From positions 62,001 to 126,000 of the forward strand of contig NZ_QXIO01000008.1 of NCBI RefSeq assembly GCF_003545765.1: a DNA stretch of 64,000 nt. The letters run 5' to 3'. The notes beneath the pieces are model-generated. The model was not told the DNA's origin. It saw only the letters and a list, made by a program, of their open reading frames with translations, and ran no database searches. The translations under genes were made by a program, and so were the position numbers. This DNA comes from Colwellia sp. RSH04. Its GTDB lineage: Bacteria; Pseudomonadota; Gammaproteobacteria; Enterobacterales; Alteromonadaceae. Within the stretch, counting starts at the first letter, position 1; each line of letters starts with the position of its first letter. Shown piece by piece: positions 7,443 to 59,076 of this stretch.

Positions 7443-7526
<84 letters not shown>

Positions 7527-7544
7527 ACAGGTAGTAAGTTTTTA

Positions 7545-7815: not shown

Positions 7816-7855
7816 GCAGAAATTTGTAATTACATTGAGTTCTTTCTAAAAGAAG

Positions 7856-7930
7856 TGGCAGGGGTAAGAGGATTTGAACCTCTGAATGACGGGATCAAAA
7901 CCCGCTGCCTTACCGCTTGGCTATACCCCT
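7856..7930 (-). tRNA. glnU: tRNA-Gln(TTG), copy 1
   Basis: 75-nt tRNA-Gln identical to the 7741 copy, with anticodon UUG and encoded CCA. The two lie 40 bp apart, pointing to a local tandem duplication inside the metT-leuW-glnU transcription unit. Confidence 0.97.
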
Positions 7931-7969
7931 GCAATGTACTTACTGTTTTACAACTGATGTTGTTAGAAA

Positions 7970-8053
<84 letters not shown>

Positions 8054-8062
8054 ATTTCTAAA

Positions 8063-8139
8063 TGGTGGCTACACCGGGATTTGAACCTGGGACCCCATCA
8101 TTATGAGTGATGTGCTCTAACCAACTGAGCTATGTAGCC
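8063..8139 (-). tRNA. metT: elongator tRNA-Met(CAT)
   Basis: 77-nt tRNA with encoded CCA. Acceptor GGCTACA/TGTAGCC (G1-C72 paired, so elongator, not initiator), anticodon loop CTCATAA with CAU, T arm intact. Closely resembles E. coli metT and is the promoter-proximal gene of the cluster. Confidence 0.97.
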
Positions 8140-37563: not shown

Positions 37564-38202
37564 ATGACAGAAACTGTAGTAGCACCTGAAAACGTTGATA
37601 TCAGAGCCACTTACCTCAAAGCTCATGAACTTAAATTAGCGGCGTCATTATTATATCAAGCTTATCATGACGACCCTGTATTTCTTGAAATCTTTAATGG
37701 TGACAAAGAAGATTATGAGCAGCGCTTAAGGTCAGCAATTCGAGAAGAGTTGAATGCTTTTTGGCAAGCAAAACAACCTATGGTTGGCTTATATTTGGGT
37801 GAGACCATGGTGGGCGTAGCATGTTTAAATAGTCCTGATGATACCTTATCAAGTGAACGCTTTTGGCACTGGCGATTAAAGATGCTGCTAAATGCTGGAT
37901 ATTTTAGCACCAAGCAAATGATCCAAAAAGAAGAGAGTGTTTTTTCTGCTGTGCCATTAAAATCTTTTCATTTACTTTCATTTATCGCAGTACATCCATT
38001 GCATCAGCAGCATGGCTTTGGTCATTATTTAATGGCTGCGGTAAATACGGTGCTTGAAGAACACCCTGATAGTGAGGGGGTTGCTGTTTATGCGACTTCA
38101 GGAAAGTTTAAAGCATTTTTTGAAAATGTTGATTATCAACTTGTTAAGGAAGTTTCTGTCGGGAATGTAAGCGGCTCAGTGATGGTACATCACCGAAGTT
38201 AA
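37564..38202 (+). CDS. GNAT family N-acetyltransferase
   Basis: 212 residues with a GNAT core. The acetyl-CoA region is LSFIAVHPLHQQHGFGHYLMAAV (about 135-160, Q-x-x-G-x-G/H variant reading QQHGFGHY), preceded by VGLYLGETMVGVACLN. Substrate unknown. Ribosome site TTGGAG. Monocistronic, ending in a terminator shared with the convergent protease gene. Confidence 0.82.
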   Translation: MTETVVAPENVDIRATYLKAHELKLAASLLYQAYHDDPVFLEIFNGDKEDYEQRLRSAIREELNAFWQAKQPMVGLYLGETMVGVACLNSPDDTLSSERFWHWRLKMLLNAGYFSTKQMIQKEESVFSAVPLKSFHLLSFIAVHPLHQQHGFGHYLMAAVNTVLEEHPDSEGVAVYATSGKFKAFFENVDYQLVKEVSVGNVSGSVMVHHRS

Positions 38203-40682: not shown

Positions 40683-41067
40683 TTAATGGTGTCTCCATTA
40701 TGTTTTTGAATATTGATAGCTTTTAACTACTCTTGTTTTTTTACCCTTAGTTGAATCAACATCAACCTTATTCATCATGTAATTAATATTGTAATGTCAC
40801 TAGCAATAATCAGACGTTTCTTAGTGACTTTACGACTAAGAAAGAAAAGAAATTAAGTTTTTATTTTCTTTATGTTATTGATTGTTAGGCTTTAATTTTC
40901 TTGCTGTCGTTTTTGTATGAAAACTTGTCGTGTTTTTGCTAGGTGACCTGTTTGTATTCTGTAGTATCGATAGCACTTGCAGATAGGAAGCGATTAATAA
41001 AAAAATGGAATTCTATAATCTTGTCAAAAGATAATTATAATAAACATGCCCTAGGGTGGAGAGATAT
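40683..41067. other. divergent region between two subtilase genes
   Basis: 385 bp, AT-rich. TATAAT hexamers at 41014-41019 and 41036-41041 are possible -10 elements for the rightward gene without clear -35 partners. No operator, RNA gene or repeat seen. Confidence 0.35.
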
Positions 41068-42900
41068 ATGAAAATTTCAAAGTTTGCTAGTTCGTTAGTT
41101 GCCGTAGCAGTATCAACAGTTTTTACAGCACAAGCTGCCGATGATAGATACATTATTCAAGTTGATAATAGTAAGAAAGGTGTTGTGAAAGCCCTTGCTA
41201 AAAAATTAGGTGGCGACTTAAAGGTTGACGGTAATGGGTTTATCGCAGCTTCATTTAACGGAAAAAGTTTAGATGACGTAAAGGGCATTTTGAATAATCC
41301 TCATATTAAGGTAATTGAAGAAGATCAACGTCGTATGCCATCTGCAGCATATAGTGATGATGCAGGAAACCCAATGACTTCACAGCTAACTCCTTACGCT
41401 GTTTACCAATCACAAGCAAACCAAGTTAACTTTAATGCTTCTGCTGGCATGAAAGTATGTGTTATAGATTCAGGTTTAGATCGTTCAAATCCTGATTTTG
41501 AGTGGAATAATATTTCAGGTGATAACGACTCAGGCACTGGCAATTGGGATGAGCATGGTGGTCCTCACGGCACACACGTAGCTGGTACCATCGGTGCTGC
41601 AGATAATAATGTCGGCGTTGTAGGTATGGCTCCTGGCGTTGATATGCATATTGTAAAAGTATTTAATGCTGATGGTTGGGGTTACTCTTCAGATTTAGCT
41701 CATGCTGCTGATAAATGTAGTGCAGCAGGCGCAAACATTATTAGCATGAGCCTTGGTGGTGGAGGAGCAAACAGCACTGAAGAAAATGCATTTGACGCTT
41801 TCACAAATAATGGTGGATTAGTATTAGCAGCAGCTGGTAACGATGGTAATAATGTGCGTTCATTTCCAGCAGGTTACTCATCAGTAATGATGATTGGCGC
41901 TAATGATGCAGACAATAATATTGCTGATTTCTCACAATACCCTAGTTGTACAACAACTTCGGGCAAAGGTAGAAGACAAACTACAACTACAGATGAAACA
42001 ATTTGTGTTGAAGTAACAGCTGGCGGCGTAGATACGTTATCAACTTACCCAGCAGGTATGGCAACAAGTGCGTCTATGTCTGCTGATGGTCAAGCTTTTG
42101 CTTCTTCGTCAATGGAAAACTCTGGCAGTGTATCGGGTAATACTTACTTTATGGGCACAGCTGAAGCTACTGACTCTGGTGCAAATGGTAATATATGTCT
42201 AATTGACCGCGGAAACATTTCATTCCACGATAAAGTTCAAAATTGTGAAAACTCTGGTGGTATTGGCGCAGTTATTATTAATAATGAAGCGGGTATGTTA
42301 TACGCTACATTAGGCGATACTAACACAACGTCTATTCCAGCAGTAGGAGCCGCATTTGAAGACCGCACTGCATTACTTTCAGCTTCAACTGCAAATATTA
42401 CTATTGGTACAAGTGATTATGGCTTTATGAGCGGTACATCAATGGCAACACCAGCTGTTTCTGGTATTGCAGCTCTAGTCTGGTCAAATCATAATGGTTG
42501 TACAGGGACTGAAATTCGTGAGGCGCTCAAAGCAACTGCACAAGATTCAGGTGCAGCAGGACATGATGTGTATTTTGGTAGTGGTATTGTTAAAGCAAAA
42601 GCAGCTAGTGATTACTTAACGGCAAATGGTTGTGGCGGTGGCGTTACGCCTCCTCCGACTGGTGGTGATATCACGTTAAGTATCTCTACATCAACAGCTA
42701 AGCGTAAAACAAATGTAACTTTATCTTGGGCTGATGCTTCTACAGCTAATGTAGACATTATCCGCAATGGCTCTTTAGTTGCAACAACTGCAAATGATGG
42801 TTCATACACTGAAAGCTTTAGAAAATCAGGTTCTTATACTTATAAAGTATGTGATCAAGGAACAAATAATTGTTCTAATGAACAGTCTGTTTCGTTTTAA
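41068..42900 (+). CDS. secreted S8 subtilisin-like protease with PA insert and C-terminal Ig-like domain
   Basis: 610 residues from ATG 41068 (ribosome site GGTGGAG); an in-frame GTG at 41056 overlaps that site. Signal peptide ends about residue 24 (TAQAA), I9 propeptide to about 95, catalytic triad D134 (CVIDSG), H167 (HGTHVAG), S458 (SGTSMATP). A PA domain lies about 350-440 (ICLIDRGNISFHDKV). After a PPPTGG linker there is a ~75-residue fibronectin/Ig-like domain (VTLSWADASTANVDI). Terminator follows. No PPC domains, unlike its divergent neighbour. Confidence 0.93.
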   Translation: MKISKFASSLVAVAVSTVFTAQAADDRYIIQVDNSKKGVVKALAKKLGGDLKVDGNGFIAASFNGKSLDDVKGILNNPHIKVIEEDQRRMPSAAYSDDAGNPMTSQLTPYAVYQSQANQVNFNASAGMKVCVIDSGLDRSNPDFEWNNISGDNDSGTGNWDEHGGPHGTHVAGTIGAADNNVGVVGMAPGVDMHIVKVFNADGWGYSSDLAHAADKCSAAGANIISMSLGGGGANSTEENAFDAFTNNGGLVLAAAGNDGNNVRSFPAGYSSVMMIGANDADNNIADFSQYPSCTTTSGKGRRQTTTTDETICVEVTAGGVDTLSTYPAGMATSASMSADGQAFASSSMENSGSVSGNTYFMGTAEATDSGANGNICLIDRGNISFHDKVQNCENSGGIGAVIINNEAGMLYATLGDTNTTSIPAVGAAFEDRTALLSASTANITIGTSDYGFMSGTSMATPAVSGIAALVWSNHNGCTGTEIREALKATAQDSGAAGHDVYFGSGIVKAKAASDYLTANGCGGGVTPPPTGGDITLSISTSTAKRKTNVTLSWADASTANVDIIRNGSLVATTANDGSYTESFRKSGSYTYKVCDQGTNNCSNEQSVSF

Positions 42901-42917
42901 GTAAGAAACACTGCACT

Positions 42918-42952
42918 TATCCAGCTTACTTCTCGTAAGCTGGATATTTTTG
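42918..42952 (+). terminator. intrinsic terminator after subtilase
   Basis: Twelve-bp perfect stem TATCCAGCTTAC / GTAAGCTGGATA, 5-nt loop, then TTTTTG. Confidence 0.9.
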
Positions 42953-43145
42953 TTTTAGTAACCCCAAATATGCTATTTATTGCAATTATGTTTGCTTTGT
43001 TATTGACATGTGAGGGTGATACTCGGTAAGTTAAAGCTAGTAACTAAAGGTTTACTTTATTTTAACAAGTGAGCATGTACGTTATATAACACGGGTCTTG
43101 TAAGTAATAAGCAGTAGATTAGTGTACTTACCATAGGGGAAAAAT

Positions 43146-44843
43146 ATGTTGTTTGAATCTTATAAAAGATTTGTAAAGCCTTTAATAATATTAACAATTA
43201 TAAGTTTGGCAACAGGAAGTTATGTCTTAACAAGGATAAGTCATCAAGAAAGTACAACCCAATCTTATATTCTTAGTGCAAAAGATTTTTCTTTATTAAA
43301 AGAAGATGTTGCTTCATTAGGGCTAACTCCATCCCATGAATTAGCCATTATTAATGCGCTGGCTATAGAATTATCTAAACAACAATTAACTTTACTTCAA
43401 GATAAAGTGGAGCTATTTGTTACGCCTAACTATCAAGTTAAATTAGCTTACGCAAATAATGGTTGGAGAAAAGGTCAACGACGTTGGCAGCCAAAAGCAG
43501 CAGTAAATCAAGTTATCGATGCTACATCAGCCCATCAAGTAAGAAACTTCGGAGATGCGGTAACGATAGGTTTCTTAGATACAGGTTTAGATCAACTTTC
43601 AGGCTTATCTACTGATTTATATGGTAAAGATAAAGCTTGGGGAACTTATGATGCAATTAATAATACCTTGCATAATTATGACGATGAAGCTAACGGTCAT
43701 GGAACGCATGTAGCTAGTATTGCAGGTAATAGTGATTTTGATATTAACGGGAAGCTTTATGGGGTTGCTCCAAATGCTTCTATTGTAGGTATTAAAGCAT
43801 TTGATTATGAAGGTAAGGCGACCTATGCAGATGTTATTCGTGGCATTGAATGGGCAATTCAAGTTAAAGACCAAATAAATTTACGTATATTAAATATGTC
43901 ATTTAGTGGTCCTGTTAGATCACTTTATTGGCAAGACCCGTTAAACCAAGCAGTGATGAAAGCTTGGCAATCGGGCATTGTTGTAATCGCATCTTCTGGA
44001 AATAAAGGGCCTGAACCCATGACTGTGGGCGTACCAGGGAATGTGCCTTACATTATTACTGTAGGAGCAATGACTGACTTTTATACAGAGTCAAATACTC
44101 AAGACGATAAACTCGCGAGCTTTAGTTCAGCAGGGCCTACGCCTTCGGGTTTTGTTAAGCCTGATATACTGGCACCCGGCGGTCATATCTCAGGTTTAAT
44201 GTCATTTGATTCTGAAATTGTAACTCAACATCCTGAGTTTCATGATGGTGGACGTTACTTTGAAATGTCAGGCACATCACAAGCTGCTGGTGTAATTTCA
44301 GGTGTAGTGGCATTAATGTTAACAGATAACCCAAACTTGTCACCTGATGATGTGAAATGCAGATTGATGGACAGTGCTCATCACGCTTTAGACAACAATG
44401 GAAAACTGGCATACAGTGTATTTCAGCAAGGTGCTGGTGTAGTGAATGCAAAAGACGCTATTGAAAGCAGTGCTTTTGGATGTGCAAATCAATCATTAAA
44501 TATTGCTAAAGATTTAGCTGGTGAAAATCATTTCTTTGGACCTGCAAATATAGATGAAAATGGTAATTTTTATATTGAAGGTTTGGGTGAGGAGTATGTT
44601 TGGCAGCATAACCAGAAGTTAATTGATGGTAGTGGTTTAATTTGGAAAAATCATTTTGTTTCGGATGGTTTAATTTGGAAAAACTCTGCAACTACAGATG
44701 GTTTGATTTGGAAAAATAATTTCGAAACAAAAGTTTTAGTTTGGGATGAACAGGCTTTAGTTGATGGTCTTATATGGAAGAATAACCTGCAAGGGAGTGA
44801 AGCCGCTACAATCGCAGTTAATAACTGGGTTGATCAAGAATAG
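43146..44843 (+). CDS. S8 subtilisin-like protease with C-terminal 11-residue GLIWKN repeats
   Basis: 565 residues. An N-terminal hydrophobic segment (about 10-30) acts as signal or anchor. The S8 domain has D145 (FLDTG), H185 (GHGTHVAS) and S378 (SGTSQAAG, Gln instead of the usual Met after Ser). The last ~80 residues contain five 11-residue units of the type GLIWKNxxxxD (44634-44798), ending in NNWVDQE. The repeats are not PPC or fibronectin domains. Terminator follows 18 bp later. Confidence 0.9.
   Translation: MLFESYKRFVKPLIILTIISLATGSYVLTRISHQESTTQSYILSAKDFSLLKEDVASLGLTPSHELAIINALAIELSKQQLTLLQDKVELFVTPNYQVKLAYANNGWRKGQRRWQPKAAVNQVIDATSAHQVRNFGDAVTIGFLDTGLDQLSGLSTDLYGKDKAWGTYDAINNTLHNYDDEANGHGTHVASIAGNSDFDINGKLYGVAPNASIVGIKAFDYEGKATYADVIRGIEWAIQVKDQINLRILNMSFSGPVRSLYWQDPLNQAVMKAWQSGIVVIASSGNKGPEPMTVGVPGNVPYIITVGAMTDFYTESNTQDDKLASFSSAGPTPSGFVKPDILAPGGHISGLMSFDSEIVTQHPEFHDGGRYFEMSGTSQAAGVISGVVALMLTDNPNLSPDDVKCRLMDSAHHALDNNGKLAYSVFQQGAGVVNAKDAIESSAFGCANQSLNIAKDLAGENHFFGPANIDENGNFYIEGLGEEYVWQHNQKLIDGSGLIWKNHFVSDGLIWKNSATTDGLIWKNNFETKVLVWDEQALVDGLIWKNNLQGSEAATIAVNNWVDQE
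44634..44798 (+). repeat. 11-residue tandem protein repeat (33 bp units)
   Basis: Five consecutive units: GLIWKNHFVSD, GLIWKNSATTD, GLIWKNNFETK, VLVWDEQALVD, GLIWKNNLQGS. DNA units are diverged, so this is an old protein-level repeat. Confidence 0.85.
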
Positions 44844-44861
44844 TTATTATCCTTTCCATAT

Positions 44862-44891
44862 AAAAGCCACTACTTGAAGTAGTGGCTTTTT
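44862..44891 (+). terminator. intrinsic terminator after the GLIWKN protease
   Basis: Thirteen-bp stem AAAAGCCACTACT with its complement, TGA loop, T run. It overlaps the upstream candidate start of the next gene, arguing against that start. Confidence 0.9.
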
Positions 44892-44944
44892 CATTTAATA
44901 TAGATTTTTATTTATATTGTTTCTCAGACGTTGGTACAAGCTTC

Positions 44945-47900
44945 GTGAAAAAACTTATCATACTATTATTACTATTTAATCAGAGTACATTTGCTCAAGA
45001 GGTAAAGTTATTCAAAAGGTTCAATGTAGATAATCCAATGTCTTACCTTTTTGTTAGAACATTAGCTCAGGATAAAAATGGATTTATGTGGGTAGGGTCA
45101 CAAGAAGGATTACATCGGTTTGATGGTTACCATTATATGAGCTTTCATCATGATACAAACTTATCTAGCTCTTTAAGCTCAAATGTTGTTAGTAGTATTA
45201 TTATAAATAAACGCGATGAACTTTGGGTTGGAACGCGAGGAGGAGGTTTAAACCTTTACCAAGAAAAAAGTCAAGATTTTATACACTTTTCAACGAAAAA
45301 CAAAAGCTTACCATTATCAAATGATAGTGTGAATACACTATATGAAAGCAATGACGGCAACCTTTGGGTTGGTACTGACAATGGTATCAATATTATTTAC
45401 CCAGAAGAGGGTAAATGGCGGGTTAAACAAATTCACCAAGAATTAGGAAACCCTAATAGCTTATCGCACAATACTGTGCATGCCATTACTGAAATTGAAG
45501 ATAATCGAGTATTGGTTGGTACAAATGGTGGTGGAATCTCTGTCTTTGATAAAAAAGGAAATTTTTTAACAACACTAACTTACCAATCACAGGAAAAAAA
45601 TATCGGTAATGATCAATTTATTAATGCTCTGCTTTCAGATAAGCAAGGATACGTTTGGATTGGTACTGTTGATAATGGCTTAATAAGGTATCACCCTAAA
45701 GATAAAAAATTTAAGCATTATAAATTTGATATTAGCGATGAAAAATCCATTATTAGTAATACGATTGAAGATGTCTTTCAAGACTCTACTGGGCAAATAT
45801 GGATTGCTACTGATAAAGGTGCATTAATTTACAATGAACTCAATGATAACTTCTTTCGATATAAGCATTCAGCGACAAATCCTTACAGTTTGAGTAATGA
45901 CTTTACTTTAACGTTTTTTGAGGATAGTAATAATTTGATGTGGATAGGCACTATGACAGGTGTTAATCGATGGGATGCTAATATGACTAAATTTAGACAA
46001 TATAGTGTCCAAACACATCCTCAATTACAAAATGACAATATCACCAGTTTTGCTCAAGATAATGAAAGCTCAGTGATCTTTAGTACTTACAGTGGAGGTA
46101 TTTATCGGTTGTCATTATCTGATAATAAAGTTACTCGTATAGATTTTGACAATTACTTTTCATCATTACGCATAATGAAGTTATTTTATGATGGAGATTA
46201 TTTATGGGTGGGAACCCGCTCTTCTGGCTTATTCAAAATAGACTTACAGAGTAAATTAATAACCGCATATAAGCATATTGAAACCGACAATACATCTATT
46301 TCTGCTAATAGTATTACTGATATTTTAAAAGATAGTGATGAAAATCTTTGGGTATCTACTTTTCATCAAGGACTAAATAGACTTAATTCTGATGATAATT
46401 TTACGCGCTTTGCTCATAACAAAAGTAATATTGAACTCGAGCCAAGTAGCAACCATATTTTACATATGTTAGATGATAAACAGGGTGGGCTTTGGCTTGC
46501 GACATATGGTGGAGGATTAAGTCGATTAGATCTAAAAACCATGAAGTTTACTCATATTCGTCATGATGAATCGAAAACTGGAAGTATTTCTAGTGATTTA
46601 TCATGGTTTATGTACCAGGATAGAGATGAAAACTTTTGGGTTGGCACACAAGCTGCTGGACTAAACATAATGAAGCAACATGATATGGAAAATAATCAAT
46701 TTTCATTTCAGTATTTAGATACAAAAGATGGTATGAAAAGTCGAACTGTTTATGGGATATCTCAAGATGATCGTGGCTTCTTATGGTTTAGTACAAATAA
46801 AGGAATATCTCGTTATGATAGTAAAAATTCTCGTTTTAAGCATTTTGGGCTTAGTCATGGGTTAATTGATTTAGATTTCAATCATGGTTCAATTTTTTCT
46901 AGTGCTGATAACACGATATATTTTGGTGCAGGTAAAAGTTTTGTTAGTGTTAACCCAAACGATATTGAAGGTTCTAGGCAAGCACCAGTTGTTCGTTTAA
47001 CAAATATACTAAACTTAAATGAGCCGATTGTTTTTGATGAAAGTTTAAGTGACTTATCCGAAGTTATTTTTAATTATAAGGATCAAGTTCTTTCTTTTGA
47101 GTATGTTGGTTTGAATTATGCCAATCCAGAATCAACGCGATATAAGTATAGATTACTTGGCTTTGATCAACAGTGGGTAAATGCTGATAAATTAAGACGG
47201 GCAACATATACAAATTTACCTCAAGGAAGTTATCAGTTGCAGATTATTGCAGGCAATAGCGATGATGTTTGGAGTAAACCGTATCAATTGAATGTAATTA
47301 TGAAGCCTGCACCTTGGAATACGTGGTGGGCTTATTTTATTTATGTTTCAATAGTTGCTTTTGCTATTTTAATGTATTCACGCTTTTTAAATCGAAAATT
47401 GCTGTTAGAGCAACAACAAAAGCAATTATTAGAGAAACAAGTAGAAGAAAAAACAGAAAAGTATACGCAAAAAAATTCTGAACTAGAGCATGTTAATAAG
47501 CAGTTAGAAAAAGCAGCAACTATCGATAAAGTCACTGGCGTAAAAAGCCGTCGCTATCTGGATATTTACATAGAGCAAGCTAGCCAGTTAATGAATAATA
47601 TTCATCAAAATTTGTTACCTGTTCAGCGTAATATATTGCCTAGGCTTTATATCCTAATGATAAGAATCGATGATCTAGATAATGTAACTAATAGCCAACT
47701 CGTTAACTTAACTGATTTACTGCTTTATAGCCGTAATTCTGATGATTTAGTTATACGCTGGTCAACTGATACTTTTGCTATTATTGGTTATGAAAAAGAA
47801 AATAATGCCGCAGAATTATCTATACGCTTAACGAAGCGACTTGAGGATATTTTGGGGCCTCAAACAACGGTAAGTATGGCGTATTCTTTTTATCCTTTTA

Positions 47901-48100
47901 ACCGTGAGCAGCCTGTTGATGTATCGTGGGATCAAGTCAACGTAATTATTGAGTTAGGGTTAAATTTAGTTAAAGATGAGTCAAACTTGTCTTGGTTAGG
48001 TTTATGTGAGCCTAAAGAGCAGCCATTTAATTACATGAATGTGTTGAAAGTTAATAAGCTTGTCGTGTTAAAGCAGCAAGTCGTAATTAAACAGGGATAA
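44945..48100 (+). CDS. beta-propeller sensor (Reg_prop/Y_Y_Y) with degenerate GGDEF domain
   Basis: About 1051 residues from GTG 44945, giving a clean signal peptide (KKLIILLLLFNQSTFA); the in-frame GTG at 44882 lies in a terminator stem. Repeated two-component-regulator propeller units (MWVGSQEGLHRFDG, LWVGTRGGGLNLY and about a dozen more) fill residues 30-680. A Y_Y_Y domain (about 700-785), one membrane helix (WWAYFIYVSIVAFAILMYS), a coiled coil and a C-terminal GGDEF-like domain follow. The active motif reads RWSTDTF instead of RYGGDEF, so cyclase activity is not expected. Convergent with the kinase at 48118 (17-bp gap). Confidence 0.88.
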   Translation: MKKLIILLLLFNQSTFAQEVKLFKRFNVDNPMSYLFVRTLAQDKNGFMWVGSQEGLHRFDGYHYMSFHHDTNLSSSLSSNVVSSIIINKRDELWVGTRGGGLNLYQEKSQDFIHFSTKNKSLPLSNDSVNTLYESNDGNLWVGTDNGINIIYPEEGKWRVKQIHQELGNPNSLSHNTVHAITEIEDNRVLVGTNGGGISVFDKKGNFLTTLTYQSQEKNIGNDQFINALLSDKQGYVWIGTVDNGLIRYHPKDKKFKHYKFDISDEKSIISNTIEDVFQDSTGQIWIATDKGALIYNELNDNFFRYKHSATNPYSLSNDFTLTFFEDSNNLMWIGTMTGVNRWDANMTKFRQYSVQTHPQLQNDNITSFAQDNESSVIFSTYSGGIYRLSLSDNKVTRIDFDNYFSSLRIMKLFYDGDYLWVGTRSSGLFKIDLQSKLITAYKHIETDNTSISANSITDILKDSDENLWVSTFHQGLNRLNSDDNFTRFAHNKSNIELEPSSNHILHMLDDKQGGLWLATYGGGLSRLDLKTMKFTHIRHDESKTGSISSDLSWFMYQDRDENFWVGTQAAGLNIMKQHDMENNQFSFQYLDTKDGMKSRTVYGISQDDRGFLWFSTNKGISRYDSKNSRFKHFGLSHGLIDLDFNHGSIFSSADNTIYFGAGKSFVSVNPNDIEGSRQAPVVRLTNILNLNEPIVFDESLSDLSEVIFNYKDQVLSFEYVGLNYANPESTRYKYRLLGFDQQWVNADKLRRATYTNLPQGSYQLQIIAGNSDDVWSKPYQLNVIMKPAPWNTWWAYFIYVSIVAFAILMYSRFLNRKLLLEQQQKQLLEKQVEEKTEKYTQKNSELEHVNKQLEKAATIDKVTGVKSRRYLDIYIEQASQLMNNIHQNLLPVQRNILPRLYILMIRIDDLDNVTNSQLVNLTDLLLYSRNSDDLVIRWSTDTFAIIGYEKENNAAELSIRLTKRLEDILGPQTTVSMAYSFYPFNREQPVDVSWDQVNVIIELGLNLVKDESNLSWLGLCEPKEQPFNYMNVLKVNKLVVLKQQVVIKQG

Positions 48101-48117
48101 TATAACAAAAATAGTAA

Positions 48118-51108
48118 TCAACTGGATTCCACGTGCTTCTGTTGGAATTGTTTTGGTGTACAGCCGAAACTTTCTTTGAAGCACCTTCCAAAATAAGTTT
48201 GTGACGAGAAGCCTACATCTAATGCAATACGTCCTATTTGTGTTCCACTTTTTAATAATGCTTGTGCTTTTCTTAAGCGAAACTCTTTAATGAAGTTATT
48301 AGGTGTTGTCCCTAATAGTACTTTTATTTTTCGTTGTAGTTGTCTTTCACTCATGGCCATTTCATTGGCTAAATGAGATATTCCTAGCTCTGTTTCAGCA
48401 TACATTTCTGCGGTAATTTGCTCCAATTTTGATAAAAATTGTTCATTGATTGAATCTGTGTTGTGATCGTTTTCTAATAAATAGGCGACATTTTGATGTG
48501 ATGTTTCTTTTCTTTCTTCTTTTTGTGTATTAGCAATTTTTTGCTGAAAGCTTTGTTGAAGCTGTTTTCTATTTACGATTAAGTTGTCAATTCTCACTAA
48601 AAGCTCTTGTTGGTTAAAAGGTTTACTTAAGTAATCATCAGCTTGTAAATTTAATCCATGTAATCGACTATCAAGATCAGACCTTGCAGTTAATAATATA
48701 ATTGGAATATGTGAAGTAATATCGTTGTCTTTCAATTGTTTTAATACTTCAAAACCGTCGATACCAGTCAGCATAATATCGCAAACAATTAAATCTGGCA
48801 GGTACTCTTCAGCTAATGTTAAACCCAGTTCTCCACTGCTCGCTAATAAACAATGATGTTTTTGTTCGATAACTTGCTTAATATGGCCTTGCATATCTAA
48901 GTTATCTTCGATCACTAATATCACTTGTTGTGAATGATCTGTTTGTTTATTTATTTGTTCTTTTTGTTCAACCAATAATGATGATACTTCATTTTCAGAA
49001 ATACTCATTGGGAGAGAACTTTCAATTTTTACGGGTTGTGCAAGTGGTATTGAAAGAGAAAATTTGCTTCCTTGGTTGTATTCACTGACTAAATTAATGC
49101 GCCATTGATGTGCTTTAACTAACTCGTTTACTAGAGACAATCCAATACCTACACCGAAAATTGCTTGGTTCTTATCGTCATCGGCGCGCTGAAAACGATC
49201 AAATATTTTAGCTTGGGAGGCTTTATTAATACCAATACCAGTATCTATTACATCTAGAATAATTGTGTCTTTATCTTGATAGGCGTTAACTTTTATTTGG
49301 CCGCCTGAAGGGGTGTATTTTATTGCATTTGCTAATAAGTTAAATATTATTTTTTCAAAAGCTTGAGCATCACATTCTAACCAAAGATCATCCCCAATAT
49401 TTGCATCATAGGTTAAGTTACTTTGTGTAGCTAATCTTGAAAATGAATCTGAGGGCATAGACATTAAGGTACTTAGCCTGTAAGTCGACAGTGTTAATGA
49501 TGGATTGTCTGTTAGGCGAGATAATTCTAGTAATTGCTCCACCATGCGCACTAATCTTAACCCATTACGTTTTGCCGTAGTGAGCTCTTCATTTTCTTGC
49601 TGAGTTTTTGCATCAATTAAATACCTATCTAATATTCCATTGATAATTGTTAGTGGAGTTCGAAATTCATGAGAAATATTTGCGATGAATTTATCTTTTA
49701 ATTCAAGTGTTTGTTTTTCAGCTAATTTCCTTGCTGTTAAGTTAATAAAGGTGATAACAATTAAAGGCTGCTCCTCTCTTTCTGCCCATTGTAACTCTAC
49801 TTGAACTGGAAACTCTGAGCTGTCAGTTCGTTTTGCAGTACACTCAATAGAAATACCGTTATCTTTTCTTTGTAAGGCATAAACATTACTTTTAAAACTA
49901 AAGAAGTAATGCATTTTATCATCGAGTGAAAATAAATTAGCAATTTCAGAGTTTAATAACTCTTGCTCTAAGCATTGAAATATTTGTACCGCAGCAGGAT
50001 TTGCAGATAAAACTTTGCCTTTAACTGAGCAGGTTAATATAGCATTGTTAGATGCGTTCACAATGGCTTTATCTTTGCTGTGAACCAACGAATTGTTAAG
50101 TTGAGTATTTAAGGTTTTTAGGGAGTGCTGTTCATCACTAAGGGTTTCTATGTGCTTCTTTAATTTGAGATGAATTTTCTTTCTATTATACAAAGAAAGA
50201 GAAGTTAAAGTGATGGCTATGAATAGCCATATAATAATAAGACCAGACTGGTAACTGGTTTGTACTAAATAAATCAATGAAAACTCAATACCAACTATAT
50301 GTATCACGATTAAGCTTACTGAAAGCATTAAAATGTATATTTCGGTTTGAGGTACTTGTCTATATGTTACAGGTTTACTTTTTTGTATAAGAGAAAGGTT
50401 TGCAGCAAATAATAGTGCGCAATAGGGCAATAGCTGTATTGAGCTATTGAAAAAATATTCTGTGTTGGCTATTTGATAAAACATGATGAAGCTTATTGTT
50501 TCATTGAGGAGAATCGCGATAGCCCCGAAAGTCATTAAGCCATAGGTTTTATACCAAAAGTTATGCTGACTGGCGATTGTTAAAACACTTAAGCGAATAA
50601 CAATAAATAAAGTAATACAAAGATTAAATGATATTGATGGCAAATGAGTTTGGTATTTTTGTTCTGCAAATTCAAATGGCATGATAATAAAATAACAAAA
50701 ACAAAGGACAGAAAAGCATATAGCAGGTACCTTTCCACTTATATGTTTATTTTGTGCATTTCCTGATAAGTGAGGAGTACTTTCTATGGCGAGTAAAATG
50801 AAAAAGTAACTGAGTAACGTTGTAAAGTCTTTAAAAAAAAAGGAAAGCGAAACTTGATTGTACAGGCCAATAAAAGAAGGTATTGAGGCTGAAATAATCG
50901 CTAAGCTAAAAAACTGCCAAAACTGTATCAAACTTCTAGACTGACTGTGTTTATACGCGATTACTGTAAAAACAAAGCATAAAAGTTGAATTATCAAAAT
51001 AGCGTATTGTTTAACATTTGTTGCAGAAGACTCCAGAACATAACCATATGGGAACAAAGTAAGTATAACTGCAATACATAATGCGAAGTTTCTAAAGTTT
51101 TTTGGCAA
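48118..51108 (-). CDS. hybrid sensor histidine kinase/response regulator with AraC output domain
   Basis: 996 residues. Eight or so N-terminal hydrophobic segments (about 1-310) form the membrane sensor, followed by a coiled coil and a PAS domain (about 345-465). HisKA has phospho-acceptor H480 (ISHEFRTP), HATPase has ANAIKYTPSGG and GVGIGLSLV. A receiver domain follows with D777 (IVCDIML) and Lys in YLSKPF, and an AraC-type HTH ends the protein (about 885-990, IALDVGFSSQTYFGRCFKE). All phosphorelay residues are intact. Probably acts as a one-protein signalling system on unknown targets. Confidence 0.93.
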   Translation of the reverse strand: MPKNFRNFALCIAVILTLFPYGYVLESSATNVKQYAILIIQLLCFVFTVIAYKHSQSRSLIQFWQFFSLAIISASIPSFIGLYNQVSLSFFFKDFTTLLSYFFILLAIESTPHLSGNAQNKHISGKVPAICFSVLCFCYFIIMPFEFAEQKYQTHLPSISFNLCITLFIVIRLSVLTIASQHNFWYKTYGLMTFGAIAILLNETISFIMFYQIANTEYFFNSSIQLLPYCALLFAANLSLIQKSKPVTYRQVPQTEIYILMLSVSLIVIHIVGIEFSLIYLVQTSYQSGLIIIWLFIAITLTSLSLYNRKKIHLKLKKHIETLSDEQHSLKTLNTQLNNSLVHSKDKAIVNASNNAILTCSVKGKVLSANPAAVQIFQCLEQELLNSEIANLFSLDDKMHYFFSFKSNVYALQRKDNGISIECTAKRTDSSEFPVQVELQWAEREEQPLIVITFINLTARKLAEKQTLELKDKFIANISHEFRTPLTIINGILDRYLIDAKTQQENEELTTAKRNGLRLVRMVEQLLELSRLTDNPSLTLSTYRLSTLMSMPSDSFSRLATQSNLTYDANIGDDLWLECDAQAFEKIIFNLLANAIKYTPSGGQIKVNAYQDKDTIILDVIDTGIGINKASQAKIFDRFQRADDDKNQAIFGVGIGLSLVNELVKAHQWRINLVSEYNQGSKFSLSIPLAQPVKIESSLPMSISENEVSSLLVEQKEQINKQTDHSQQVILVIEDNLDMQGHIKQVIEQKHHCLLASSGELGLTLAEEYLPDLIVCDIMLTGIDGFEVLKQLKDNDITSHIPIILLTARSDLDSRLHGLNLQADDYLSKPFNQQELLVRIDNLIVNRKQLQQSFQQKIANTQKEERKETSHQNVAYLLENDHNTDSINEQFLSKLEQITAEMYAETELGISHLANEMAMSERQLQRKIKVLLGTTPNNFIKEFRLRKAQALLKSGTQIGRIALDVGFSSQTYFGRCFKESFGCTPKQFQQKHVESS

Positions 51109-51455
51109 TGCTTAAATCCAGATAAAATATTTTGAAAAGTTAACGTTTTATTTGTGAAATTTTAACCTTTAATTGTTAACTTACTATACATTATTTTAAC
51201 AAAACAAGCGGCTAAGTAAGACTTTTAGCTTATTTTAATAAGTTTAACTTCAGTATTTCTGTAAACTATGTAAGACATGTCGCACAAGGTCGTGAGATAT
51301 GTTGGCAATTGATGTTGAAAAACCGAAGGTTTTTATTTCTATCTTATTGTTTTGTATAGGGTTGTTATTGTTTTGCTTTTGTTACATTCATATTACAACT
51401 AAGTTTTTAGTTATATCATGCTTCTCGCATTTTGAAATAGGTGTATTATTAATAC
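51109..51455 (+). promoter_or_regulatory. upstream region of the CsrB-like RNA with a GacA/UvrY-type box
   Basis: TGTAAG-ACATGT-CGCACA at 51269-51286 matches the Gac box TGTAAG-N6-CTTACA in 10 of 12 positions and sits about 170-190 bp before the expected RNA start, the usual distance. TATTAT at 51444-51449 is a possible -10. A 74-codon open frame here (51299-51523) runs into the RNA and is not considered a gene. Confidence 0.6.
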
Positions 51456-51868
51456 TGTCAGGACGACATGGAGCAGGGGGCTTTATTATGAACAAGGATT
51501 CGCTCGCAGGAATACTTGCTTAGGATAAGCAAGAGTGGTTTTAGGATAAACCATGATAATGGAAATATCAAAGGATTGATATAATAAGGATGTTGTAAGG
51601 AAACTAGGAAACTCAAAACGGGATGTTTTGTTAAAGGACCTTTAAGGATAAAGTATAGTGGCAGGATGTTGCTAAAGGACGAAATAAACATGGATGTGGG
51701 TTGATTAGGAAGATCAACGTCAGGAAGACAGTAGTAAAAGGACAATGAGAGGACTCATTAGGATAAACTAAGGATAGTTATTCAAGGAAGAAACGAGAAC
51801 ACCATATTTAGTGCAGGACGCACGATATAAGCTAGTATAAAATGCGGCTCAATGAGCCGCATTTTTGT
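51456..51868 (+). ncRNA. csrB: CsrB/CsrC-type regulatory RNA sequestering CsrA
   Basis: About 410 nt without a credible protein frame but with 25 GGA trinucleotides on the plus strand, most as AGGA. Many sit in small hairpin loops: GTC-AGGAC-GAC, CTTGCTT-AGGAT-AAGCAAG, GGTTT-TAGGAT-AAACC, GAG-AGGA-CTC, AACTA-AGGA-TAGTT, GTGC-AGGAC-GCAC. It ends in a strong intrinsic terminator. This is the design of CsrB-family RNAs, which titrate the translational repressor CsrA/RsmA under BarA-UvrY (GacS-GacA) control. The 5' end is estimated. Strand is fixed by the terminator and the GGA orientation. Confidence 0.9.
51839..51866 (+). terminator. terminator of the CsrB-like RNA
   Basis: Eleven-bp perfect stem AAATGCGGCTC / GAGCCGCATTT with AAT loop and T run. 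Confidence 0.92.
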
Positions 51869-52065: not shown

Positions 52066-52422
52066 ATGTATTTAACATTGCAAAAAATTTCTAATGCTCT
52101 AATGCCACTAAGACAGTTCTTATTGTTTTCCGCTGTTTGTTTAATGCTTTTTATAGCTTATCAGCTTATTTTTCCTGTTGCGGTGTCAGTACATGATAAT
52201 CTACTGAAAATCTGTCTGTTAGGGCTGATTTGGCTTTTATTGTTTTACAGTATCATCATCACATTTTCTGGTAAAAGAGTAGACTCAATAGAAACTAAGT
52301 CATGGCTTGCGAAGTTTAAACATAAGTTAGCCTCTATCATGAAAGGATGTTTTGTAATTTTCTTTTTTATATTAACTGTCGCAATAGTGATAATCTCTAC
52401 TCGCATGTTAAATGTACTTTAA
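52066..52422 (+). CDS. small membrane protein of unknown function
   Basis: 118 residues from ATG 52066 (ribosome site AGGAAAC), with three hydrophobic segments (about 12-35, 45-68 and 93-116) and a basic loop before the third (KSWLAKFKHKLASIMKG). Convergent with the giant collagenase gene and separated from it by a terminator. A decayed copy of its 3' end lies in the same relative place beside the second collagenase (59100-59250), so gene and collagenase were duplicated together. No family recognised. Confidence 0.65.
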   Translation: MYLTLQKISNALMPLRQFLLFSAVCLMLFIAYQLIFPVAVSVHDNLLKICLLGLIWLLLFYSIIITFSGKRVDSIETKSWLAKFKHKLASIMKGCFVIFFFILTVAIVIISTRMLNVL

Positions 52423-52502: not shown

Positions 52503-55500
52503 TTAACGTTCAGAAACTATTAATTCAACGCCACCAAACTCACCATCTAAAGTGATGTAGTGCCAGTAAACGTCAGGGTTTAGTTGCACATCTAAACTAT
52601 CCCAGTTACCGTCACCGTTTGCATAACCGTCATTATCTTGCGCAGTTGGCCAGTCATCAGCTTTAAACATAATGTCTGCATTACCCCAACCACCAGAAGT
52701 TGTTAGTGTAAGGCGAGTAGATAAAGCATCTTCATTGCGGATGAAGAATGATGCGTGGCCACCTGAAGAGTTAATACATTCAACGATTTGGCTTGTTGAT
52801 ACAGTTGTATTTTCTGGATCATGAGCATTCGCCTGAACATTCACTACACAAGGAGAGAAATCAGTACTGATTGTTACAGGTTCACCAGCCCAGTTGCCTG
52901 CTGTACCAGAAGTAGTAGAGTCTTCATCATTAGGACCAAGTTCAACAATGTTGCTTTCACCTAACACAACACCATTCACTAACCAGTCATTAAACTCAGC
53001 ATCGTAACTTGTACCGATGTTATCCATATAAGTTTGATATTCCGTGAATTGACCTGTACGTGTCAAGCTTAAGATTTGGTCAACATCGTTTCTATGGTTT
53101 TCAAACATGAAGCGAACTGCTAGGTAACCCCAACGATAGATTCGTGTTTGACCTGAGTTATAGTCATTCTTGAAGATTTCAGATAATGCCACTTCTTGAG
53201 ATTCACCCACAGAAATTGCGAAATCATTACCGTCACCTTGAGAAATATACTCACCAAGACCTTCAGACCACCATACCGTACTAACAGTCATACCAAGTTG
53301 GAAATCTCCATATAAATCGAAACGACCATCTAAATAATGAACGTATTCATGCTGTAGGTTCCAAACATGGAATTCAGGTTTTATCCACTCGGCTTCATAG
53401 GCAATGAAACGCGCTTGGTTCTTCTCATTAATTGGTGCACCTTCTAAATACATACCACCATTATTAGTATCAATACCGAAGAATTGACCTGCATAGGTTT
53501 TGTAATCTTCTGATGAGTCGAAAATAACAAGTTCTAATGCTTGGTTATTATCGTCAGCAACTGGCTGGTAACCTGTGTTCAATATTTGATGGAAGTTTGT
53601 TTCTTGACCACCTAATACTTCACAAATCCAAGCTGCTTGATCGTTGTACATGTGCTGAGCACGAATCTTCAAGCTATCAGAACACTTGTAGTTGAAGGTT
53701 AATGTTTCAGCTTCTAAGGTGTATGCGAAACCACAGATATTATAATAACCACAATCTGCGCGATCGTAGAAATCAGACATGCTAGCTGCTTTTATCCATA
53801 ATGCTTTAGTTTCGTCATCTTTACTTGAGCTATCAAGTACCGCTTTAACTAACGACTTAACACGTGGAAATAACTCATCGATATGATATAAGCGAGACAT
53901 TTCGTTAACAGCATTTAATAAAACATACTCAGCATCAGTACCAATCATGTCACGGTTAGCATTTTGGAAGTTAAACAAAACATCTAAAATACTATCGTCA
54001 GCAATGAATAGTGCTTGCATTGCTTCATCCCATTGAGCACGGAATAAAGTAGTGAAAACAGCATTTGCTGCAGCATTCATGTTAAAGCTAGATTTCCAAT
54101 TTGCATTATAGTCATTAAGTACTTTAATGGTTATATCGTTAAAAGCAGCACCTAAGTAGGCAGAATCAACGGTAATCAACGCCTCTTTTAATACGTTGCC
54201 GTTTTCTTCGCTAACTATCCAAGTGTTAGTGTTGTTAAATAAGTTTCTAAGCGCTGTTGCAATAGCATCTGTTACAGCAGAAGTATACTCAGGCACATCT
54301 TCTGGATGAGCAAACTGTACATAATAAGCACCGCGTAAGAAGTATAATAATGATTGCAACCCTGTTGTATCTGTACCTGTATATCCTGGAGCGCGTGTAT
54401 TGATAGCATTGGCGATAGCAATCATATTCGCTTCAGAGTATACCTGCGTCGCATCTGCTCCACTAATCTTATAAATAGGGCTAACATTTTGTGGATGAGA
54501 AATTGCAATACGCTCTACAAGGTTATCGCCGTTTAGTCCTAAGAAACGTGTAGCATCAGTAGGGAAACCATCATCAGGGATGTCATTACCACCTCCTGTT
54601 GAAGGGAACTTAGACGTATCAGTAGCAATTAAGAAGCTAACTTCGCTAGCATCGCCACCGTTAGCATCTAATAAAACGTATAACCAACCTTTATTAGCAG
54701 TAAAAGTAACTGTTTCACTAGTACCAGTATTTGTTGATACATGTTCATAATTACTCGTTGTTGCCCATGTTTCAGCGCTTGTGTAAATTGCTAAATCAGC
54801 AGTACCACCAGCAGTAGACATGGTTATTTCAACGTTGTCATGTGGAACAAAAATATAGTAAGAAGAAGAGCCTGAGATGTTTACACACTCAACTTGGTTA
54901 AAGGTTAATTCTTGCTCAACAATTGTATCAGCGCCACACATGCCCGGATTAGTTGGTAGAGTAGGAATAACAGAACCGTCGCCAGAACCGTCACCAGAAC
55001 CGTCACCAGAACCGTCACCAGAACCGTCGCCAGAGCCGTCACCTGAGCCGTCGCCAGAGCCGTCGCCAGAGCCGTCGCCAGAGCCGTCACCTGAGCCGTC
55101 GCCAGAGCCGTCACCAGAACCGTCACCAGAACCATCACCAGAACCGTCACCTGAACCATCACCAGAACCGTCGCCATCAGTAAATGAATCAGCATCAATT
55201 ACATAGGTATTTACAGCTTCAGTTAATACAGCAATACCTAAACACTTGTTGTTGCTTTCTGCAATCATCATACGGTCGCCTTGCGCCCAGTAATCTGCAC
55301 TGTAGGTATCACCATTGTTTAAGGTTTGGTAGTTGTTATCTAAGTTTGGTTCACCTGTCGTTGAACTTACCCAGTAAAGGCTAACAGGCGTATCTGTGGT
55401 ATTAGTAACTGAAATCTCAGCACCATCTGCACTACGCTCGTAAGCGTTTGTTAAGTCACAGCTACCAAAAGTATTTGCAGCAGGAATAACTTCAACAGAG

Positions 55501-58500
55501 ACTGCATCTTTAACCATTTCAGCATCAACAGTGAAAGTATTCACTGATTCTGTCATTACAGCAACGCCTAAACAGTTCTTGTAGTTATCAGTAACCACTA
55601 AGCGATCACCATTTGCCCAGTAATCAGCACTATAACTCTCACCTTGCGCTAAAGTAGCATAAGGGTTGTCATAGTTAACTTCACCTGTTTGGTTATTAAC
55701 CCAATATAATGTTACGGGAGTATCAGTAGTGTTTGTTACTGAGACTTCAGCAGCAATATCACTATTGCGTACATATTGGTATACAAGGTCACAACTACCA
55801 AACGTATTGGCTGCTGGAATAACTTGAGGAGGAGGAGCAATTGCATCGGTATTAGCTAATACCCAGTCAGTGTAATCGGTATCAGTGGCAACAATATTTG
55901 CTAACACAGCATCGAATGCAGCTTTGTCACTATTACGAGCCGCTTGTGCTGCTGCTAATACATCACTTTTACGGTTTTCAGCGAGGTATTGCATAGTAAT
56001 GTATGACCATGGATATAAATTATTAAAAGAGTAATCCATGAATAAAACATTATGCAAAGGTGGCACAGTTTCACCTGCAAGGTCACCTAAGTTTCGAGTA
56101 TCGCCCACACCTTTAGATAAATACTCTGCCCAACCTTCAGCCCAAGATACGGTATTTAAATGATACTCAAAAGCACCATATAAATTATATCGACCATCAA
56201 GATAGTGAGTGTATTCATGTTCAAGATTATAAACATCACCTTCAGCTTCACAAGAGTAACCTACCCAGCTTTCTGGACATTGCATAGCATGAAAACGTGC
56301 AATGTTACCTTCAACTGAAGGATCACCTTCTAAGTAAATTCCACCATTATCTGTGTTATGCCCAAAGAAGTCATAACCGTATTGCTCATAATCTTCAGGC
56401 GATGCATAAACAACGACTTCTAATTTCGCATTAGTATCATCAGCAACGGGCTGGTTACCTGTATTAAAGAAGTTATGGAACTTATCAGTCATTGCTGACA
56501 TCTTTTGACATGAACTATCTAACTGCTCTGGGGTCATAGATTGAGCACGGATAGTTAAGTTGTCATTACATTGATAAGTCGTAGATAACACATCTTCAGC
56601 AGTTAACTCAGGTAAACAGTAATTAGCTAATGCATCATTTTCATCACAAGTACGGCCAACAGCGTCAAGATAGGTTGTACCTATTTCACGTTTAGCTGTT
56701 TCTTCAGAAATATCAGTAGTTACTTTGTTATAGATTTCAATAACAATGCTATCAATGCGTTCTTTTGTTGCATCATCTGCAAGGTTACTTACATGGCCTA
56801 GCGCTAATAAAGTATGTGCTAATATCCATTTTCTATCACTATCAGCATCCCAGCGTAAGTCTAAGGCTGTCTCACCTAAACCATAAGCACGTAACGCAGA
56901 AATTACTGATAACATTTGATTATTAAAGGCAGTACTCAATGTAGCGTTAGACTTGCCTTCAAAAGCCATATCATAAAAAGCCTTTAACAGTTGGTTAGTA
57001 CTGTAACCAAAATTGTCGTAGCTATATGGATTAGTTAATTCAGAGTAATACTGAGTTAAGGCTAGTAAATGTGGAATGTGCTCTTCAAAGGCGTCACTTG
57101 CAGGTGCTAATGCTAAGTTTAACATTGCTGTTGCATAACCTTCTTGAATTAAACCAGCTGGCGCTTCAGTTGAGTGGAAGTCAGTCATTTTCGCAACAGC
57201 ATGTAATGCATTGCTTAAACGAGTTACTTCATCAGCAGTAAAATCACCAGTTGTACCGTTGAATGAGTAGTTTCTTAAGAAGTAAACTAATTGATCAAGA
57301 TCTGTACTTGTGATGTCATCTTGTGCAGCTAAGAAGTGAATTGCATCAGCAACATCACCAATTGGATCTTCTGCTCTGCTAGCAATAGCAGCCCAGTCAG
57401 CCCATGAGCCTGCAATGATTTCATTAACAACATCAGTAAATTGACTAGCCGATGTTAACGTTGGTGCAGGGATAGAAACAACAACATTTTTGTCAATAAC
57501 TACGTAATCGTCATTGCCGCCGCCGTTGTCACCGCCGCCGTTATCACCGCCGTTTGAGCCATCACTTACACTAAAAGTAACTTGATCGTTATTTCCAAAG
57601 ATAGTGATATATAAACGACCTGCATCAGCAGTTAATGAAATACTTTCTTCTGTAGTACCTGTTGTTGCTGAAGAGGCTATGTTGTTGCTTGAAGAAGCCC
57701 AGCCACCAGTATTAACATAAAGGTCTGCTTCACCCGTACCACCTGTTGTAGTAATAGTAAGGTTTGTGTTATCTGCTTCAACATCTAAATAATGGTATTG
57801 ACCATTACCTGAAATACACTCGGTTTGATTAAGTGTTAAAGCATAACCTGATGTAGTTTTAGCACCACAAAGTACCGGATCGCCGCCGTTATCACCGCCG
57901 CCGTTATCACCGCCGCCGTTATCACCGCCGCCGTTATCACCGCCGCCGTTATCACCGCCGCCGTTATCACCGCCGCCAGAATCGGTTTCACCATTCAGGC
58001 TTAATGTAACGCCTTCGTGAGCACCCATGAGAGAGATATAGAAGGTACCTGCATTTGCAGTAACTGATAATGATTCCTCAGTACCAGAGTTTACTGACGA
58101 AGCAGTAAAACTACTACGTGTAGCCCAAGAGCTAGAGTTTACATAAATGTCAGCTTCACCAGTACCACCAGTCGTCGTAATGGTCAGTGGTGTGCCATCT
58201 TCTTCAACATTGGTACTAAAGTATAATCCATTACCTGAGGTACATCTTACTTCACCAAGTGTTAATGTTGCGTTCGAACTACTAGGGTTAGCACAAAGCT
58301 CACCATTATCATTGCCATTATCTGTACCAGCTTCTTTTACATTAAGTGTTACTTGTTCATGATTACCAAATACACTGATGTATAAACGACCAGCTTGCGC
58401 TGTTACCAATAATGACTCTTCAGTTCCTTCATTATTTGTTCTTTGAGTATGGCTAGAGCTTGTTGCCCACCCAGAGGTGTTGACTAAGATATCAGCTTCA

Positions 58501-58730
58501 CCTGTTCCACCAGAGGTAGAAATCTCAAGTTCAGTGTTATCGTTTTCAACATCGACATAAAAGTATAGGCCGTTGCCTGAGGTACACTCAGTTTGGCCAA
58601 CCGTGAGTGCGCCACCTGATGCGGTGGTGCTACCACATAGAGGGGTATCACTTGCCTGAGCACTGTGTGATGCAAAAGCACCTGCTACAGCGATCGCGGT
58701 AAGCAACTTTTTAGCGACAGAATGTGTCAT
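52503..58730 (-). CDS. giant secreted protein with two M9 collagenase modules, PPC-type and VHL-like domains
   Basis: About 2075 residues from ATG 58730 (GGGAAC ribosome site; same start as its paralogue). Signal peptide ends SHSAQA (about 27). Order: three PPC-like domains (two at about 30-245, one after a GGGDN linker at about 290-385), M9 module 1 with [10 protein letters not shown] (H838) and [10 protein letters not shown], two ~105-residue VHL-beta-like repeats (about 970-1183), a (GDGS)17 linker (about 1186-1253), a PPC-like domain, M9 module 2 with [10 protein letters not shown] (H1794) and [11 protein letters not shown], and a C-terminal PPC-like domain. Both zinc sites (HExxH plus downstream Glu) are intact. 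Typical Vibrio M9 collagenases have one module in about 800 residues. Activity on collagen is inferred from family. Confidence 0.9.
54973..55176 (-). repeat. 12-bp tandem repeat coding (Gly-Asp-Gly-Ser)17
   Basis: Seventeen in-frame 12-bp units of the type GAACCGTCACCA (plus strand), with synonymous variants. A flexible acidic linker, possibly calcium-binding, between the two collagenase halves. Likely variable in copy number. Confidence 0.95.
57883..57978 (-). repeat. 15-bp tandem repeat coding (Gly-Gly-Gly-Asp-Asn)6
   Basis: Six nearly identical 15-bp units with CCGCCGTTATCACCG on the plus strand, a linker between PPC-like domains 2 and 3. A shorter copy of the same type occurs at about 57520-57555. 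DNA identity between units implies recent expansion. Confidence 0.92.
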
Positions 58731-59076
58731 ATAAGTTCCCGTTTTTTTACTAAGGGATAAGTTATGCAATACCTATCCGTTAATTTATAATTGTTATAGG
58801 CTTTTACGAGATTCCTCTTTCATCAATAGCTATATTGACTTGCTAGAAAAGCGCTAGCATTGCATTTTTCGAGTAACGGTTTGGGAGATTCACTTAATTG
58901 ATAAAAGTGATTGTTACTGAGTTGTTAGTCGTTCAGTTGCATACTGAGTTATTCAACTAACCAAATTTTTTTATTTTTTACTAAACAGGTAAAGTAGAAG
59001 CATCCGAAGATGTTACAAAACGTAAGTGAAAAAAAACATTGTATGCAATATATTATAAATAGTATTAATTGTACAT
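58731..59076 (-). promoter_or_regulatory. upstream region of collagenase A, duplicated before collagenase B
   Basis: The first ~150 bp are about 90% identical to 62571-62735. Shared parts: a leader hairpin GGATAGGT / ACTTATCC (58755-58778) just before the ribosome site, an inverted repeat GCTAG-N7-CTAGC (58842-58858), and TTGTATGCAATATATTA at 59039-59055, which recurs at 62888-62904. The promoter itself cannot be fixed. Confidence 0.55.

Follow-up and report, generated by a model that had tools for sequence, protein, structure and literature searches.

We asked what is encoded at positions 51456-51868 of the window (the whole stretch of Colwellia DNA that was analysed, 64,000 nucleotides), where the motif GGA recurs on one strand. 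An earlier note on this DNA had read 25 such motifs in about 410 nt, at least six of them displayed in hairpin loops, and a terminal intrinsic terminator, as the marks of a CsrB-family RNA, and these elements are indeed present. The + strand carries 25 GGA (21 of them AGGA) and the - strand none. In 2000 dinucleotide shuffles of the stretch the mean was 13.2 GGA and the maximum 21, and the next densest separate 413-nt stretch of the window has 11 on the + strand (8 in the densest one on the - strand). As is usual for the CsrB/Rsm class, the numerous motifs often fall in possible hairpin loops: 14 of the 25 can be placed in loops on stems of at least four Watson-Crick pairs, with G-U pairs allowed besides (mean fraction 0.11 in 500 shuffles), and nine of these stems are perfect. 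Two pairs among the nine (GGA 51561/51573 and 51636/51646) share bases and are mutually exclusive. The fold of 51455-51868 was better than those of 100 out of 100 shuffles (z -4.6), and the minimum-energy fold retains only some of the local hairpins. The elements of the RNA are as follows:

51455-51866, + strand, predicted CsrB-type RNA gene of ~412 nt with 25 GGA; the start is placed from the -10 element and the conserved 5' end
51456-51468, + strand, 5' hairpin TGTCAGGACGACA, part of the conserved 5' end and absent from the minimum-energy fold
51730-51865, + strand, conserved 3' module (the part used for model R1) with four GGA hairpins and the terminator, tested for covariation
51843-51866, + strand, intrinsic terminator TGCGGCTCAATGAGCCGCATTTTT, a hairpin and T-run, with two-sided changes in the genus at three of nine pairs

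We consider it highly likely that this is the gene of a non-coding RNA of the CsrB/Rsm type, ~412 nt long, which would be activated by UvrY/BarA and would bind many CsrA dimers; as judged from its sequence, the RNA very probably soaks up CsrA as CsrB does in E. coli. The gene appears to be free-standing, with a putative promoter and an intrinsic terminator of its own and with no conserved reading frame.

A second question is how such a gene would be switched on. A Gac-box-like palindrome about 170-190 bp upstream had also been claimed, and we located it at 51269-51286, its first base 186 bp upstream of 51455, the inferred start of the RNA, which agrees with the distance claimed. The box was scored at 12 positions against the consensus TGTAAG-N6-CTTACA. 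It lies far upstream of the promoter, as expected for the class, among these elements:

51269-51286, + strand, Gac/UvrY box TGTAAGACATGTCGCACA, with 10 of 12 consensus positions kept and an imperfect right half
51291-51299, + strand, putative extra UvrY-like half-site CGTGAGATA, separated by 4 bp from the downstream end of the box; the genus mostly has TGTGAGATA
51421-51426, + strand, candidate -35-like element CTTCTC, 17-bp spacer to the -10 element, weakly conserved in the genus as CTTCGA
51444-51449, + strand, -10 element TATTAT, present as TATTAT or TAATAT in most genus copies

Elsewhere in the 4.15-Mb genome the pattern TGTAAGANATNTCNNACA has no exact match. Matches with up to two mismatches were at chance level (22 + 20, compared with 18 + 26 for the reversed pattern) and were discarded as further Gac boxes. 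In the genus, a Gac box was present in 34 of 34 upstream regions, always with its first base between -182 and -186 relative to the predicted start of the RNA; 19 of the boxes are perfect, 11 have one departure from the consensus and 4, among them that of the window copy, have two. An IHF-like site with at most one mismatch was found in 23 of the 34 copies, mostly near -114 (8.3 expected from Markov-chain sequences). At this threshold no such site was found upstream of the window copy (genome G000) or of the copies in G025 and G036, and the best match in the window copy has two mismatches and lies at a different place. The promoter region of E. coli csrB, as described in excerpts of PMC4682653, has its UvrY palindrome centred at -183/-182, followed 5 bp downstream by a partial half-site and, between box and promoter, by a putative IHF site, and we found an exact match to the IHF consensus at -102 of the E. 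coli csrB upstream region. The promoter layout read here is that of E. coli csrB, shifted by a few bases, with its IHF part apparently weakened or lost in the window copy.

We also asked how widely the locus is conserved. A DNA query of 581 bp, covering the RNA and its upstream region, matched in 36 of 39 genus genomes, and R1, a covariance model of the 3' 140 nt of the RNA, matched in all 39, including 10 without a training row, at E ≤ 3e-13 (the match in G035 is partial and lies at a contig end). In the family, under strict filters, R1 matched in 66 of 196 genomes and 25 of 52 genera at E ≤ 0.1, and in 58 genomes and 18 genera at E ≤ 1e-6, eight of the genomes belonging to the same genus as the window; R1 can thus serve as a tool for finding this gene throughout the genus and, at the latter threshold, in these 18 genera of the family. 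Matches near E 1e-4 can be mere terminators, as a false match in the own genome illustrates: a weak match at G000:C52:246017-246145 (37.5 bits) was rejected as a second copy of the RNA, since its locus is poor in GGA (no more than 5 per 400 nt) and the match is a terminator closely following a long frame, which by its look resembles a TonB-dependent receptor. The third match in this genome is the reverse strand of the RNA's own terminator. All 12 R1 loci fetched from outside the genus have a cluster of 15-21 GGA motifs and, 190-193 bp before it, a Gac-like box agreeing at 9 or more of the 12 positions.

For the genus copies, 30 loci were fetched and copy starts were set by a motif search requiring at least 20 of 32 matches to the window copy's own start. 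L042 and L064, which run off the contig end, were excluded from the table of lengths and motifs, as were the second copies of L040 (cut) and L061 (start not found), leaving 35 copies in 28 loci; L050a had too little upstream DNA, which left the 34 upstream regions described above. The 35 full copies are 313 to 1185 nt long and carry 16 to 68 GGA and at most one TCC each. The 5' hairpin TGTCAGGAAGACA recurs in most of them with slight variation (L059 has lost the GGA of this hairpin), and the copies end in related terminators. Moreover, the motifs change less than their surroundings. Between G000 and G036, which are ~80% identical here, 22 of 25 GGA are kept, and 4 of 75 motif bases have changed compared with 86 of 337 elsewhere (p 4e-5); between G000 and G025 all 25 are kept, with changes at 0 of 75 motif bases and 17 of 337 others (p 0.05).

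The 3' module was also tested for covariation, using a five-hairpin structure derived from one row and an alignment (A1) of 35 genus rows. Standard pairs make up 94.3% of the cells in these rows, and two-sided changes occur at 9 of the 24 pairs. On four of five measures none of 500 shuffles was as high, the fifth measure (further pair types) being reached in 26 of 500, and when the pairing partner was slid by 1-3 columns, pairing fell to 24-43%. Unaided, RNAalifold gave 19 pairs, 4 of them with two-sided changes. Two of an original 37 rows were left out of the alignment. One, the second copy of L046, is identical in its letters to the L042 row; the other, from the second copy of L061, is diverged, is without several of the GGA hairpins and would lower the paired percentage if included.

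We also ran the covariance search with Rfam models that the earlier note had proposed. Nothing in 51456-51868 exceeded any Rfam gathering cut-off. The best sub-threshold match was to RF00018 (CsrB), at E 3.2e-7 and over all 356 model positions, but its 33.4 bits lie below the cut-off of 71 and include a composition bias term of 15.9. The next Rfam model followed at E 0.97, and the RNA locus is the sole RF00018 match at E ≤ 1 in its own genome. The RF00018 match alone proves little, because the same model also matches control genomes: at E ≤ 1 it matched in 5 of 14 well-known genomes, including Bacillus subtilis and two archaea, and it exceeded the cut-off in one, presumably E. coli. In 61 genomes including the own one, searched with strict filters under which the own-genome match was lost, 18 had a match at E ≤ 1 and 9 exceeded the cut-off, all nine outside the genus; none of the 37 Colwellia genus genomes searched had a match over the cut-off. 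The analysis locates what is probably the switch of the Csr network in cold-adapted marine bacteria of a genus that the curated CsrB model misses at its cut-off.

Gene order gave a further line of evidence. The markers in the window are:

34866-35717, - strand, queF, a marker of the csrB gene order
35772-36365, + strand, syd, a marker of the csrB gene order (queF-syd-csrB in E. coli)
37564-38202, relative of a GNAT-like gene, in the same place as in G033, without a Pfam match of its own
52066-52422, + strand, 118-aa open reading frame (ORF), without a Pfam match, often found after the RNA in many genus genomes

In E. coli the order is queF, syd, csrB, yqcC, truC, and the first three have the same relative strands as queF, syd and the RNA here, so that both order and strands are kept. 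In G033, queF(-) and syd(+) are followed by two small genes, the GNAT-like gene, two tandem RNA copies(+), the 118-aa ORF and trpA in reverse, and the genes past trpA resemble, by their look, further trp genes. In the window, ~13 kb between the relative of the GNAT-like gene and the RNA hold three subtilase genes, a propeller-GGDEF protein and an AraC-type hybrid kinase; downstream of the RNA come the 118-aa ORF and then collagenase genes, with trpA beyond the window at C70:126392. The distance from syd to the RNA is ~15 kb here compared to ~2 kb in G033. Of 14 genomes examined, only three (G000, G025 and G036) have the subtilase, propeller and collagenase clusters at up to 10 kb from the RNA, and members of the kinase cluster occur, farther off, also in G021. 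The simplest reading is that 38313-51108 and 52503-58769 are probably lineage-specific insertions flanking an older csrB locus. In three loci from other families of the order (L003, L004, L012), syd is also beside the CsrB match. The RNA gene is probably the positional orthologue of E. coli csrB; we call this only probable because the IHF site between Gac box and promoter was not found in the window copy. The gene order suggests that csrB is of old origin, belongs near queF-syd and has kept its promoter layout despite drift in its sequence. We found no description of the csrB-syd order in the literature searched for csrB with syd and synteny. As side observations, the 2088-aa protein encoded in 52503-58769 contains two collagenase (M9) stretches and linkers rich in Gly and Asp and is followed by a further frame of its cluster, and a cluster of five tRNA genes, with two pairs of equal Rfam score, lies at 7446-8139 on the - strand.

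In the earlier note the RNA, described as lying next to a hybrid kinase, had been suspected of perhaps controlling the neighbouring proteases and c-di-GMP enzymes. A link to these neighbours found no support. The protease and c-di-GMP families lie near the RNA in 3 of the 14 genomes only, in an otherwise conserved order. The kinase is built as HisKA-HATPase-receiver-AraC, with an AraC-type output domain; another protein of the genome matches BarA better, and the neighbouring kinase, whose similarity to BarA (30%, residues 274-518) ranked last of 18 matches, was rejected as the GacS/BarA homolog. The relatives of this kinase in the named genomes are only four and distant, and are uninformative for the locus. 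Since CsrA titration acts in trans, genes nearby could be targets but need not be; the kinase and proteases beside the RNA say nothing about what it targets.

The genome does encode the partners that a CsrB-type RNA would need, all outside the window: a single CsrA gene, a UvrY orthologue (67% identity) and a BarA-like kinase (C2:78259-81090, 41% over 913 aa), which by this similarity may be the true partner of UvrY. In the proposed mechanism, BarA would drive the phosphorylation of UvrY, and phosphorylated UvrY would bind the palindrome centred near -177 and the flanking half-site and switch on the sigma-70 promoter. The transcript would end at its own terminator and present ~25 GGA, many of them in short hairpin loops. 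It would hold many CsrA dimers, leaving less free CsrA, and CsrA-repressed mRNAs would be freed. The original proposal of a CsrA-titrating RNA of the CsrB type, with a Gac box and its own terminator, is thus supported by the conservation across the genus, the covariation, the promoter layout, the gene order and the fact that the genome encodes CsrA, UvrY and a BarA-like kinase.

Could the same data be explained otherwise? The bias in base composition in the Rfam match might point to a purine-rich or repeat-rich stretch that arose by chance, a reading whose probability we regard as negligible: none of the 2000 shuffles reached 25 GGA, and this result, together with the conserved promoter, box and terminator and the two-sided base-pair changes, refutes it. 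The region might instead code for protein, for example in the 95-aa antisense frame at 51458-51745, which is open in both G000 and G025. However, over the 35 copies the longest closed frame on the - strand varies from 14 to 95 aa (56 in G036), the longest on the + strand is 62 aa, and G000 and G036 are separated by several gaps of 1 or 4 nt; protein-coding readings were rejected on this variation in frame length and are extremely improbable. It is also very unlikely that the RNA, instead of being free, serves the 118-aa gene downstream of it as a structured leader or attenuator. In 7 of 14 regions examined such an ORF does follow on the strand of the RNA, with a 36% match in an eighth (G003), and it was found in many further loci, but the conserved terminator ends the RNA 200 bp before the ORF, no ORF of the 118-aa cluster was found within 10 kb in the remaining regions, and 7 of 28 loci have two successive RNA copies, each with its own terminator.

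The other alternative concerns control of the RNA: in this lineage it could still bind CsrA and be decoupled from UvrY and IHF, being constitutive or under another regulator. The box agrees with the consensus at only 10 of 12 positions in G000, G025, G036 and one G034 copy, compared to 12 of 12 in 19 of the 34, and G000, G025 and G036 are the copies noted above as being without an IHF-like site at ≤1 mismatch; furthermore, one csrB copy of Vibrio tasmaniensis is independent of VarS/VarA, according to excerpts of PMC6262261. Against this, the left half-site and the flanking half-site are intact and their spacing is kept, and E. coli csrC is bound by UvrY despite a palindrome of weaker symmetry and without a need for IHF (excerpts of PMC4682653). 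We regard decoupling as unlikely, and the UvrY-activated CsrB-type RNA as the preferred reading.

Kulkarni and others reportedly predicted CsrA-regulating RNAs by computation in 2006, and an earlier prediction for Colwellia is possible. The RNA is a new representative of the known CsrB-type RNAs. It resembles E. coli CsrB (RF00018), which has 22 GGA in 369 nt, hairpin loops, an intrinsic terminator, a far-upstream Gac box with a half-site and the order queF-syd-csrB; the two share little primary sequence similarity (33 bits), and the Colwellia RNA differs in the missing IHF-like site of the window copy, the ~15 kb between syd and the RNA and the other genes downstream. Among marine relatives, Pf1, Pf2 and Pf3 of Pseudoalteromonas fuliginea are also intergenic and GGA-rich, with 25, 21 and 9 GGA in PMC11882849 (21 for Pf1 in PMC9927453). 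In the excerpts available from these two papers, the Pf1 region has a putative GacA site, all three RNAs have promoter activity and increase the glycogen of E. coli, CsrA shifts Pf2 and Pf3 in vitro, such RNAs act against CsrA, and the authors report no significant match of Pf1 or Pf2 outside Pseudoalteromonas; we liken these RNAs to ours by their published description, not by sequence. The same holds for Aln1a-c of the marine relative Alteromonas macleodii, A(N)GGA-rich CsrB-like RNAs that were the most highly expressed genes of their data set and that, unlike the Colwellia RNA, are three RNAs from one 404-bp intergenic region (excerpts of PMC5864184). CsrB1 and CsrB2 of Shewanella oneidensis have a similar predicted size (420-421 nt) and an upstream Gac box, are UvrY-dependent and gave northern signals; the two copies are split by a transposase gene, in contrast to the single copy here (excerpts of PMC3171408). 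For Colwellia itself, the passages seen of a paper on a metagenome-assembled genome describe CsrA and no CsrB (PMC10516948); in those of PMC5471319 strain 34H is named for comparison only, and in those of PMC5568370 Colwellia is not mentioned.

Finally, we asked how the RNA varies in size within the genus. The window copy is a compact, single-copy form, and some related Colwellia species have nearly three times as many binding motifs. The largest RNA, in G020 (L057 / L139, G020:C10 ~93551-94740), has 68 GGA in 1185 nt and contains a 147-nt unit repeated 4.4 times with 93% matches, and G002 (L056) is similar, with 53 GGA in 1028 nt; both are draft genomes in which errors in assembling the array are possible. 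Tandem pairs of full RNA copies, each with its own terminator, occur in the seven loci L043, L044, L045, L046, L049, L050 and L053, and 13 of 13 copies with enough upstream DNA (14 copies in all) have their own Gac box. It is conceivable, and we propose this tentatively, that the CsrA sponge of the genus is an adjustable modular RNA in which a conserved 5' end and 3' module surround a core that grows by tandem duplication, or in which the whole gene is duplicated, so that each species would set its titrating capacity genetically, from 16 to 68 motifs per RNA. In the literature searched on tandem or repeat units in CsrB, no title or abstract opening described a CsrB expanded in tandem. The range of 16 to 68 GGA offers a natural series for testing the size of the sponge against CsrA activity. 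In other families of the order, L013, L019 and L031 (G041, G050), whose listed matches are below the Rfam CsrB cut-off, have two or three successive GGA clusters with Gac-like boxes that agree at 10 or 11 of the 12 positions.
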